From contig CAJNOJ010000133.1 in assembly GCA_905250025.1 (NCBI GenBank), positions 1 to 64,000 on the forward strand: a DNA stretch of 64,000 bases, written 5' to 3'. Of the stretch, positions 43,052 to 47,476 are shown in pieces; the stretch's first letter is position 1, and each line of letters starts with the position of its first letter. This DNA comes from Adineta ricciae (lineage: Eukaryota > Rotifera > Eurotatoria > Adinetida > Adinetidae). The notes beneath the pieces were generated by a model that saw nothing but the letters and a program-made list of their open reading frames with translations, was not told the DNA's origin and made no database searches. A program made the position numbers and the translations under genes.

Positions 43052-44233
43052 ATGGTTGCCGTTGCTTGTGTTGGTCTTGTTCTATTGTCACTTGTCAATA
43101 GTGTTGGTATGTACATGTATATGGAAGACGATGTAATTATCTGCGTAAATTGTTTTCTAGCGAGTAATTGCTTGGTTGCTGGTGGTTGTGGTGTAGGCAG
43201 TTGCTGTTCAGCATTTGGTGTTTGTGGTTCTGGTGCGCAGTATTGTGGTTCAACAGCTGTTGTATATCCTGGATGGTCAGGCGCACCGTATGTTGGTGGC
43301 GATTGTCGTGTTATAGGTTGTGGAGCTGGTTACTGCTGTTCACCTTATGGATAGTGAGTATTTTATAGAAGTAAGACGATGTTCTAATATCTCCATATTA
43401 GCTGTGGAAATACAGCTGATTATTGTGGTACACCTGTTGTTGTTGTTGCACCAGCACCAGCTCCAGCACCTGCAGTAGGTCAATGCCGCCTAACTGGCTG
43501 TCCAGCGGGTTCATGCTGTTCACAATACGGATAGTAAGTTTTATTAGGGTTTTTGAATGTCTAAATAATCTATTTTCTCGATATAGTTGTGGAACTACAG
43601 CTGCTCATTGTGGTGTATCGTCATACGGTAACTGTGGTGCCACAGCATGTGGTTCTAATCTCTGCTGTACACGATATGGATAGTACGTAGATATAGTCGT
43701 ATTTGATCGAGCCTCAACAATCTTGAAAATATTTGTTCATATTAGTTGTGGATCAGTTAGTGTTTATTGTGCATTTCAACGATCTTCAAACGACAATCAA
43801 GCAGCTTCGCTTGAAGGTGAATTCCAAGGTCAAGCTACCTACTACAATGAAACTCGACTTGGCTCACAATATTCAACCTGTGGTATTGAACGAGGTCGAT
43901 CATTGAACGAAGATAATGAAGCAGTCTATGTTGCTGCTATTAATCCAGCTCAATTTGATCCTTACACAGCCAATGGCATTCCAAGCACCAATCCAATCTG
44001 TCAAAAGAAAGCTGTAGTTAAAGGTGCCAAAGGTGAAATTAAAGTTCGTTTCGTGGATCGATGCTTCGACTGTAAACAAGGTATGACAAATTTCTTGTTA
44101 AACAATATTATTTTCTCATCTACGTTCTCTTTTTGATACAATAGGTGATATTGCATTGACACAAGATGCTTTCATCGCTGTTGCTGGCGAACTTGGTACT
44201 GGACATACTAATGTTGAATGGCATTTCATTTAA
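43052..44233 (+). CDS. Secreted multi-hevein (chitin-binding) and double-psi beta-barrel (RlpA/barwin-like) protein
   Basis: Six exons: 43052-43106, 43161-43353, 43402-43533, 43587-43682, 43746-44080 and 44145-44233, 299 residues. Exon 1 encodes a signal peptide (MVAVACVGLVLLSLVNSVG, cut near A-S). Then come Cys-rich chitin-binding type 1 (hevein) modules: GSCCSAFGVCG, GYCCSPYGYCGNTADYCG, GSCCSQYGYCGTTAAHCG and NLCCTRYGYCG. A Pro/Ala linker (APAPAPAPAVG) follows the second. The C-terminal 130 residues form a double-psi beta-barrel like expansin, barwin or RlpA: GQATYYNE, STCGIERGRS, VRFVDRCFDCKQGDIALTQ, where the barrel's catalytic-type Asp occurs in VDRC. Probably secreted to bind chitin or another wall polysaccharide. 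AATAAA at 44364-44369. The domain mix is typical of fungi and plants. Confidence 0.88.
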
Positions 44234-44632
44234 ACTGATGTCACCATGACATATCAACAGACGATCAAAGGAAAAACACTCGATATAAACAAAATTTTCT
44301 TTTTCATTTTAATCATATCTATGCGTAGATATACATATTCATTTACATTTTCTATCTTACACAAATAAAATCATTCTATTCTTTACACTCATATTCACAT
44401 AACATTGCTCTTTTATGAAAGGCATTGAATCTGCTAATTTTTCATCTTCCCAATTCATATATTAACACGAGTGGAAACTGATTGCTTATCAAAACATAAT
44501 AAATAAAACCTCGCTCACCGGAAATCAATCTATGGCTTTCGAAGCCGACGTCCGCAATCATTTTTTCATGTACATTTACCTATATAAGTACGTTGACAAA
44601 TTCAAATGGAGCACGATCTTTAATAAAGCAAA
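44234..44632. promoter_or_regulatory. Intergenic region with polyadenylation signal and TATA box
   Basis: 399 bp. AATAAA at 44364-44369 serves the preceding gene. TATATAA at 44581-44587, about 45 bp before the next ATG (44633), is a plausible core promoter for the guanylate cyclase gene. Confidence 0.5.
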
Positions 44633-47476
44633 ATGATCTATGGAATATTACTTGAGAGTTGTCGAGACGGTGTCTGTGAAACCTATGGGCCCGCCACATG
44701 GAAACGAATCGTTCAAGATTTAAATTTCGAACATGAATCATTCACAACGCTTGGTCGTTACGAAGCAAACATCATCGAGCGAGTGGCTGAATGTAAGACA
44801 TAGTTGATCTTCGAATACCTAACATTTGTTTTACGTAGGTCTCGCAGAAGTTCTTCATGAAGGTACACCAGATTTATACATGCAGTTTTTTGGTGAATGT
44901 TTTGTGAGGTTTTTTACTAATTATGGCTATGATAAAATCTTACGCGTCGCTGGTCGACATTTTCGAGATTTTCTTCTATCGATTGACCAACTTCATGATT
45001 CCAATCGATTCAGTTTTCCAAAAATGAAATCACCTTTGTTTCATGTAACAGACGAAGATGAAAACGGAGCAGTTTTACATTATAAGTACATCATTTGTCT
45101 TCATATTGCCTCCGATTTTCTCCTTTCTTTTTCCAGATCAAAACGGCGAGGTTTTCAACGGTACATCATCGGACAGTTGAAAGAGTGTGCTGCAAGATTT
45201 TTCAAAGAAGAAATCTCCATTCGTATTCAAGACGATGTTTCATCGAACGAATGTAAGCTCGAACGAAATTTCTCAGCAATAATTATCTTCGTTCACTTAG
45301 ATACACATATTGTTTTTCGTGTGGATTTTCATAATTATCAAATGAAAACCATTGGCAAACGTTTTATTCAAAATCCCACATTGCCCGATGTGACTAGTGC
45401 AACATTTTTCAAAGTAGGTTTGTTATGACTGATAAATAACAATCGTAAGTAAATATCATGAAGTTATTTGGTAAAGATTATTTTCAAAATATGTCTATTC
45501 ACTTAATCCGTGTGTATGAAAACAAACTCGGTTTGAACTTAGGTTTTTCCGTTCGCGATCATCCTTGATCCTCAAATGCGAATCTTTCATATTGGAGACT
45601 CAGTGAAAAATGTTTTTCCACCTAAAACTCAACTAATTGGTCGACATCTTGATGATGTTTTTTGTCTCCTACGGCCGGATATTTTACTGGAATGGAATCG
45701 AGTTTGTTTAATGAAAATTTCGAGAGAAAAAAGCTGAAGATTTTCTTTAGGTTCTCTCGTACGGTCGGCATATCGTCTTTGTCATCGAAAGTCGCATTGC
45801 GCTACAACCGGCTTCATCTATTATTGTAAAACAATTAGGAACGGCACATGCTACTTCTCATCTTCGACTTAAAGGTCAAATGAAGTTAATTAGTGCTTGG
45901 AATATGATCGCCTTTCTTTGCCACCCGGAGTAAGTTTTTTTTTGTGCGCAATTTCAATGTGAAATGGATTGTTAAATGTGCATCTAGATTAACAACAGCA
46001 GAAGAAATGCTTTCCGTCGGTTTGTTTCTCCACGACATAAACTTCTACGATGGTAGCAGCGAGATTCTCATTGCTGGTATGCAACATGCTCGGACATTAC
46101 AAGCAGCTATTGATAAACAACAAGCATGGATAACTAAATTACAAGGCTCAAAGCATGAATTAATGGAATGGCGTCGTAAAGGAAAACGTCTTCTATATAA
46201 TATTATGCCACGACATATTGCACAAATGTTGCAAGAAGGTGTACTGGCGAATTCTATTTGTGAAGTAAAAGATTGAATGAGAAAGGAGGAGATCCTTATG
46301 GCATGTTTTAGTCTCACAAATTGATAACGGTTCTGTTTGCTTATTCGATTGATTTTAAAGATGTGGTGCAAAAACTTGCTCCGCAACAAATCGTCGAGTC
46401 AATCAATGCAATTGTCAATGCATTTGATCAATGTTCAGAGCATTTCGATGTGTTTAAAGTGGAAACCAAAGCGGATTCGTCTTACATGGTCGTGTCTGGT
46501 ATACAAGATCGTGGTCCGACGAACCAGCGACGTGCATCAACTGCAGTATGTTTCCTCTCTTTCATTTTTCTTGCCTTAGAATGTGGCTTTATTTACATTT
46601 TAACAGAGTGGATCTTCAATAACTAGTGTGGCATTCTCAGAAGAACTCAATGGTGACTTGAAAAATCCGTTGGGTCTCAATCAAGCAGAAGTTATTGCTG
46701 GTCTAGCGCTTGAGATGCTGGCAAGTTCGAAAAAAGTCATTAATCCTGTAACAGGACAACCGTTTCGGCTAAAAACTGGTAAGAAAATAACGATTTTGAG
46801 GTTCTTCCAGGAAATTTATGTATGTCATAGGTTTCCATTCCGGTTCAGCTGTCGGTGGTATCGTCGGTGCGAAAAATGTGCAATACTGTTTATTTGGTGA
46901 TACAGTCAATACGGTAAGAGAATAATTGAAAATTCTCCTTCAATGTTTTCTGATCTTTTAGGCTAGCCGAATAACCACGACTGGAGAGGTAAATATAGAT
47001 CGTTCTTTGTCTAAATACAATATTTTTGTGATACTGTCTAGCCGGGACGGATTCACATAAGCGACACGGCTTATCTACTTCTCAAAGGATCACCTTATTT
47101 CGAAGTTGAAAATAAAGGTCCAACCGAGTTAAAAGTAAAATTGATGACACTGACTTCTAAAATAATGCTCTCTTCAAATTATTATTCAACATCATAGGGT
47201 AAAGGCATTGTTGAAACATACTGGTTAGTTGGCCCGAAATCCACATATACCACAGCCATTGAACTAGATCCATTGCTTCTTGTTGAAGAACGTCACTCTG
47301 TATCTGGACACAGTCACCATCATCATGGAAGTCCTCGTCATCATCATACAGGTTCGCATGATTCTCATAATAGGAATGTAGCTGATGGTCGTGGAAGTCA
47401 AGCATCCCAACGATTATCAACTACTATCAATAAAGCATCGCATCCGACTGGTGGTTGTCCATTTAGTGGTCACTGA
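44633..47476 (+). CDS. Soluble guanylate cyclase, beta-type subunit with haem (HNOB) domain
   Basis: Thirteen exons: 44633-44792, 44839-45085, 45137-45252, 45301-45413, 45543-45701, 45751-45929, 45988-46264, 46312-46545, 46607-46778, 46831-46913, 46962-46988, 47042-47134 and 47198-47476, 712 residues. HNOB domain: starts MIYGILLES; the proximal haem His is present in IDQLHDS and the haem-propionate motif YxSxR is present as [33 protein letters not shown] and [10 protein letters not shown]. Cyclase domain: base-recognising Glu (KVET) and Cys ([13 protein letters not shown]) indicate GTP. The first metal Asp is replaced (LFAYSIDF), as in beta subunits, and the second-metal loop reads [13 protein letters not shown] with one extra residue. 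Such enzymes need a partner subunit to make cGMP in response to NO or O2. The tail is His-rich. AATAAA at 47557-47562. Confidence 0.9.

Follow-up and report, generated by a model that had tools for sequence, protein, structure and literature searches.

A candidate disarmed, chitin-anchored loosenin, perhaps antifungal, in the bdelloid rotifer Adineta ricciae

In plants, prohevein and the class I proteins of the PR-4 family join a hevein module to a barwin domain. A comparable combination occurs in the bdelloid rotifer Adineta ricciae, in positions 1 to 64,000 of contig CAJNOJ010000133.1 (assembly GCA_905250025.1; this whole stretch of 64,000 nucleotides is referred to below as the window), where a confirmed, real gene at positions 43052-44233 of the forward strand encodes a predicted secreted protein with four hevein modules followed by a double-psi beta-barrel. 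The first-pass annotation had described hevein modules joined to such a barrel in a gene with introns, and this description is confirmed by the profile match of the modules (Hevein/Chitin_bind_1, PF00187, CBM18; 79.1 bits in 4 stretches of the protein, cut-off 27.8) and by a structural match to the double-psi beta-barrel fold. The barrel is of the loosenin/expansin D1 type. According to the available text of the relevant papers, microbial expansin-related proteins strictly conserve Asp82 of the expansin BsEXLX1, and the D82A mutation abolishes activity (PMC9888185), the same residue is found in 20 of 20 fungal sequences of a second study (PMC12779228), and a precedent for its loss is a Stigmatella expansin with Leu at this site (PMC5072189). 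In the same available text, loosenins that lack hevein modules bound chitin more than cellulose, yet gave no boost to chitinase (PMC9888185), and an isoelectric point (pI) below 5 went with a preference for chitin among fungal expansin-related proteins (PMC12779228).

The A. ricciae genome contains four genes with four hevein modules, a barrel and six exons, here denoted class I, on contigs C133 (the window), C113, C140 and C143 (the C140 gene reads as A. ricciae protein P0034), as well as class II barrels, which keep the ordinary barrel, on C374 (three copies, a to c, of which C374b reads as protein P0160), C855, C96 and C118, with a degenerate copy on C16 (at 491 kb). Among 49 class I barrels (relatives of the window protein and those of the window genome; P0044 and P0046-P0050 were left out as unspliced frames), the Asp82 site (BsEXLX1 numbering) is occupied by Ala in 36 and by Gly in 13. 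The site is Asp in 105 of 107 other barrels (the class II copies of the window genome, including all three C374 copies, P0067, and the matches from P0160 onward); the two remaining barrels are the degenerate C16 copy, with H, and P0210, with L. In the full barrel alignment, this site is A or G in 56 rows, 49 of which enter the count; in bdelloid-like frames that apparently run into the last intron, the column reads E (P0044, P0144), gap (P0049, P0138), D (P0149), N (P0129) or S (P0134). The Thr12 position is relaxed in class I (Thr in 39/49 vs 102/107 in the others), and the Asp71 equivalent is kept in all 49 class I barrels and all 107 others. In the window protein, the equivalents of Thr12 (T190, 43837-43839) and Asp71 (D263, 44056-44058) are both present, and the equivalent of Asp82 is Ala (protein residue 273/274, in GDIALT; codon 44153-44155), so that the Asp82-Thr12 pair is incomplete. 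The same site is residue 78 of the Clavibacter expansin used as the alignment anchor, for which a D78N mutant has been deposited.

These counts suggest that the class I barrel is a disarmed expansin or loosenin, with Asp82 replaced throughout the clade as sampled. Because the residue needed for expansin wall loosening is lost, binding appears likelier than loosening; the earlier proposal that the protein acts on fungal or the rotifer's own chitinous walls is best retained in this narrower sense. Assignment of the barrel to the plain Pfam family DPBB_1 (PF03330) was rejected, given that it scores 14.4 bits, under the cut-off of 28.8 (the class II paralogue P0160 scores 44.2). The canonical C-terminal D2 domain of expansins (CBM63) is absent, the window protein ending with the barrel. 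The pI of the barrel is 5.3 in the window protein, 4.5 in its C113 counterpart and 9.5 in P0160.

At what we take to be the ligand positions of hevein (Ser19, aromatic residues at 21 and 23, and Tyr30), modules 1 to 4 of the window protein, all of the six-cysteine type, read SFVY, SYYY, SYYH and TYYY, respectively, such that, under this numbering, the full set is found in module 2 alone. In module 2, Ser, the two aromatics and Tyr or His are kept in 32 of the 35 proteins with four modules. Across 51 proteins, a pattern that overlooks variant modules and partial gene models gave counts of four modules (35 proteins), three (8), two (2), one (5) and six (1). Four modules are present also in Didymodactylos P0045; among automatic gene models, three Rotaria proteins of 255 amino acids are one module short, and the number rises to six in an R. 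sordida model of 392 amino acids.

The exons, all on the forward (+) strand, delineate these modules, with the start of module 2 and the module boundaries in exons 3 and 4 taken from a hand count on the exon table. Exon 1 (43052-43106), with the first bases of exon 2, encodes a signal peptide, assigned by inspection (residues 1-19, MVAVACVGLVLLSLVNSVA, 43052-43162), and in the predicted model of an orthologue residues 2-19 form a helix. Exon 2 (43161-43353) contains module 1 (43169-43246), a linker and the start of module 2 (from 43304); exon 3 (43402-43533, 132 nt), the end of module 2 (to 43426), a Pro/Ala linker and the start of module 3 (from 43484); exon 4 (43587-43682, 96 nt), the end of module 3 (to 43611) and the start of module 4 (from 43633). 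Exon 5 (43746-44080) carries the end of module 4 (to 43770), a linker and most of the barrel (from 43822), including T190 and D263, whereas exon 6 (44145-44233) carries the end of the barrel with the Asp82-equivalent position and the stop codon. A possible poly(A) signal, AATAAA, lies at 44364-44369 (+). Between the window protein and the partial A. ricciae protein P0028, identity is 97%.

Module 1 has no intron, whereas modules 2, 3 and 4 are each split by a phase-2 intron. Intron 2 (43354-43401, +) separates Gly-Tyr from Cys in module 2, and the introns at 43534-43586 and 43683-43745 (+) cut modules 3 and 4 at the same codon; the phases 1,2,2,2,1 are common to all four A. ricciae class I genes, and the single hevein module of C374a is without an intron. 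Exons 3 and 4 are symmetric (2-2) and, therefore, can be duplicated or lost in frame. Because modules 2 to 4 are cut at the equivalent codon in the same phase, the simplest reading suggested by the gene structure is that they grew by duplication of intron-bounded exons. The last intron (intron 5, 44081-44144, +) is in phase 1, inside the Gly codon immediately ahead of the Asp82 region. The class II barrels C374 a to c, C96, C855 and C16 have a phase-0 intron immediately ahead of a codon that in most of them specifies Gly, likewise upstream of the Asp82 region and one base away from the class I position; the C118 barrel has none. The two may be one common intron that slid. The fungal-looking frames P0192, P0199 and P0209 continue through the bdelloid intron site and break later, a hint, no more, that this intron is not present in the fungal-looking genes.

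Hevein modules were also observed in other contexts. A 193-amino acid frame (L053, C144:2563-2955) has four modules and no barrel, with a part repeated at L059 (C409) beside an ambiguous (X) stretch, and the hevein-like modules of L052 (C2:1004390) are apparently also split directly before a module Cys. In A. vaga P0054, hevein modules are joined to EGF-like domains. Five loci on G000 contigs (L054-L058; C343:60403, C438:65527, C16:545124, C322:82731 and C616:33361) show one or more hevein modules followed by a GH19-like chitinase sequence, the layout of plant class I chitinases; PF00182 gave 80 bits, scored on the joined C343 exons only, and in the frame read at the C616 locus, the hevein module ends in a stop.

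The distribution of the family was assessed in three protein searches that were word-limited, that is, required shared exact words (for the search with the window protein, 120 of 131 matches are listed). Among the matches listed, the named class I holders are A. ricciae, A. steineri, A. vaga, several Rotaria and Didymodactylos, and no named animal other than bdelloids appears. The other named relatives of the barrel among the matches listed are fungi and the fungus-eating amoeba Planoprotostelium fungivorum, with up to 58% identity between the fungal and amoebal proteins and the class II barrel, and the named non-bdelloid matches of the window protein are matches to hevein and come from fungi, plants and further eukaryotes that are not animals. 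Hevein and barrel are joined also in the metagenome proteins P0067, P0195 and P0163. Prokaryote genomes scanned with P0160 yielded 48 pattern matches, and tblastn confirmed none of them as a relative. Literature searches, including rotifer with hevein and bdelloid with CBM18, showed no publication on a bdelloid hevein-barrel gene among the papers listed, in what was mainly non-subscription literature. The layout, which the first-pass annotation had called plant and fungal, does have relatives outside animals but is not exclusive to those two groups, given that the amoebal protein P0164 shares it; the same domain order in many unrelated animals, which would have spoken against the proposed horizontal acquisition, was not encountered in these searches.

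For the barrel tree, 242 aligned stretches on 224 sequences were reduced to 171 sequences by dropping 51 with coverage under 75% and 2 identical ones. Ten of the 171 were then excluded (P0044, P0144, P0049, P0138, P0149, P0129, P0134, P0085, the degenerate C16 copy of A. ricciae itself and P0210), and clustering at 88% identity gave 132 rows; the tree has 102 columns. In this unrooted tree, with bootstrap not fully settled, class I forms one clade (100/99), which groups at 96/89 with C96, C118, Rotaria P0170 and four unnamed rows, and the C374 group is found elsewhere. A single clade of all bdelloid-like rows was not rejected (approximately unbiased (AU) test, p = 0.319), compatible with one or two transfers. 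A full-length tree of 25 rows (21 of 27 named class I matches and the four window-genome genes, with P0013, P0028, P0034, P0040, P0043 and P0052 excluded, their models being odd, partial or duplicate), rooted on Didymodactylos, resolves three paralogue clades (94/93, 95/93 and 92/98), and both Adineta and Rotaria occur in each of them. The family therefore is older than the split between Adineta and Rotaria, and the class is older than the split of all three genera. An ancient horizontal acquisition of the hevein-barrel gene by bdelloids is well supported by these comparisons, and the source was probably a fungus-like microbe. A recent acquisition is rejected by the presence of class I in three bdelloid genera and in three paralogue clades, so that the candidate horizontal acquisition proposed at first stands, not as a lone or recent arrival but as an old, duplicated family.

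Within A. ricciae, C140 and C143 share about 91% DNA identity along about 8.5 kb (dS 0.092, dN 0.017) and are interpreted as either alleles or the result of a recent duplication, whereas C133 and C113 are more divergent (dS 1.19, dN 0.22); dN/dS is about 0.18-0.19 for both pairs. The soluble guanylate cyclase gene 3' of the window gene (44627-47473, +, span of exon frames) was matched 3' of the C113 paralogue in the same orientation, and C133 and C113 therefore look like ohnologues. Among class II loci, L047 and L048 (C374:26000-47000) cover three hevein-barrel copies with stretches common between copies, suggestive of gene conversion. L046 (C118:301269), P0184, P0186 and P0187 are single barrels of 105-110 amino acids with Asp82 kept and no evident signal peptide or hevein module, possibly intracellular.

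The predicted signal peptide, the four lectin modules and the barrel without the loosening residue together point to a secreted multivalent chitin binder. We favor, with rather better than even confidence, an old, horizontally acquired bdelloid gene whose modules were multiplied and whose barrel was disarmed, and whose product would act by multivalent binding of chitin or polymers of N-acetylglucosamine (GlcNAc), most likely on fungal walls. A fungus or fungus-like eukaryote would have donated a hevein-loosenin gene before the bdelloid genera split; introns would have been gained or kept after arrival; the intron-bounded 2-2 exons would have multiplied the chitin-binding modules to four; and the barrel, once disarmed, would no longer loosen walls but might serve as a second binding face beside the multivalent modules. 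The likeliest role would be gripping fungal cell walls, for defence or for handling fungal food, that is, a disarmed, chitin-anchored loosenin, perhaps antifungal. The more specific scenario of a foreign wall-loosener turned animal chitin lectin, with the Asp lost once before the bdelloid genera split, the modules multiplied inside the animal by exon duplication, and the product a multivalent secreted binder directed against fungi, we hold only tentatively, at somewhat short of an even chance. In the available text of a study of fungal attack on A. ricciae, many foreign genes are up-regulated, 351 of 372 at 24 h having orthologues in distant genera (PMC11258130).

Several observations weigh against this interpretation. 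The available text of that study does not name a hevein or expansin gene, and the word-limited searches could miss divergent animal relatives. The barrel tree, with its 102 columns and unsettled bootstrap, singles out no donor and no number of transfers. About 4 kb upstream of the C113 copy give no match to the upstream genes of the window, so that the shared neighbourhood amounts to one gene, and the case for exon duplication is based on the position and phase of introns, not on intron sequences. In the window protein itself, the second aromatic position is Val in module 1, position 30 is His in module 3 and position 19 is Thr in module 4.

A serious rival, although in our estimate an unlikely one, is a structural or coating protein that binds the rotifer's own chitin in egg shell, jaws or gut lining: a predicted secreted, multivalent protein kept in three bdelloid genera and duplicated is what a housekeeping matrix protein might look like, but no monogonont is among the matches listed, and monogononts also have chitinous parts. 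Somewhat less probable is a barrel that acts as a protein-binding inhibitor, of the papain-inhibitor or kiwellin type, with the hevein modules delivering it to the surface of fungi or of the gut. Asp loss is no mark of inhibitors, since this residue is present in the papain inhibitor, and the inhibitory residues could not be mapped. An active wall-loosening loosenin or expansin would fit the shared fold, the Thr in 39/49 and the Asp71 equivalent in 49/49 class I barrels, but is improbable given the replacement of Asp82 in all 49 and, in the available text, the inactivity of BsEXLX1 D82A (PMC9888185). Vertical descent of the gene from an ancestral eukaryote, followed by its loss in the other animals, accords with animal-like introns and an unrooted tree of few columns; it would require many independent losses, no other named animal being among the matches listed, and is more improbable still. 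Contamination or an assembly chimera has a negligible probability and is rejected by the introns, the C113 paralogue with the same downstream neighbour and the orthologues in other bdelloid assemblies.

That bdelloids carry foreign genes is already well known, and A. ricciae reportedly has horizontally acquired cellulolytic enzymes, said to have been described by Szydlowski in 2015; the gene described here is read as an old foreign gene that was remodelled inside the animal. The fate of a foreign gene is rarely so readable, from introns and exon-wise growth of modules to active-site loss, duplication and long purifying selection. A natural expansin clade with Ala or Gly at position 82 should be useful for learning what the barrel does without the loosening residue, and A. 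ricciae and its fungal pathogen are an existing laboratory pair, as the available text indicates (PMC11258130), such that an antifungal role is directly testable.

Compared to the fungal loosenins and microbial expansin-related proteins (PcaLOOL12, BsEXLX1 and Streptomyces Ss_EXLX1), class I differs by Ala or Gly at Asp82 throughout the sampled clade, and the window protein adds the four N-terminal hevein modules. Prohevein and PR-4 class I share with it the secreted arrangement of an N-terminal chitin-binding hevein module and a double-psi barrel, whereas for the window protein Barwin (PF00967) is not among the Pfam matches listed at E up to 1, and the protein has several modules and belongs to an animal. 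In P. fungivorum, P0164 and P0185 likewise show hevein followed by the same type of barrel; however, P0164 has one hevein module, in P0185 PAN/apple domains are listed between the two or next to them, and both proteins keep Asp82 and fall in another part of the barrel tree. The class II paralogues C374 a to c and C16, with hevein and barrel in the same genome and the barrel intron one base away, differ from class I in having one hevein module, and P0160 is basic (pI 9.1 vs 5.6 for the window protein). Wheat germ agglutinin and pokeweed lectin-C resemble the window protein, by sequence matches, in their hevein modules in series, but have no barrel, and their modules contain eight cysteines rather than six.
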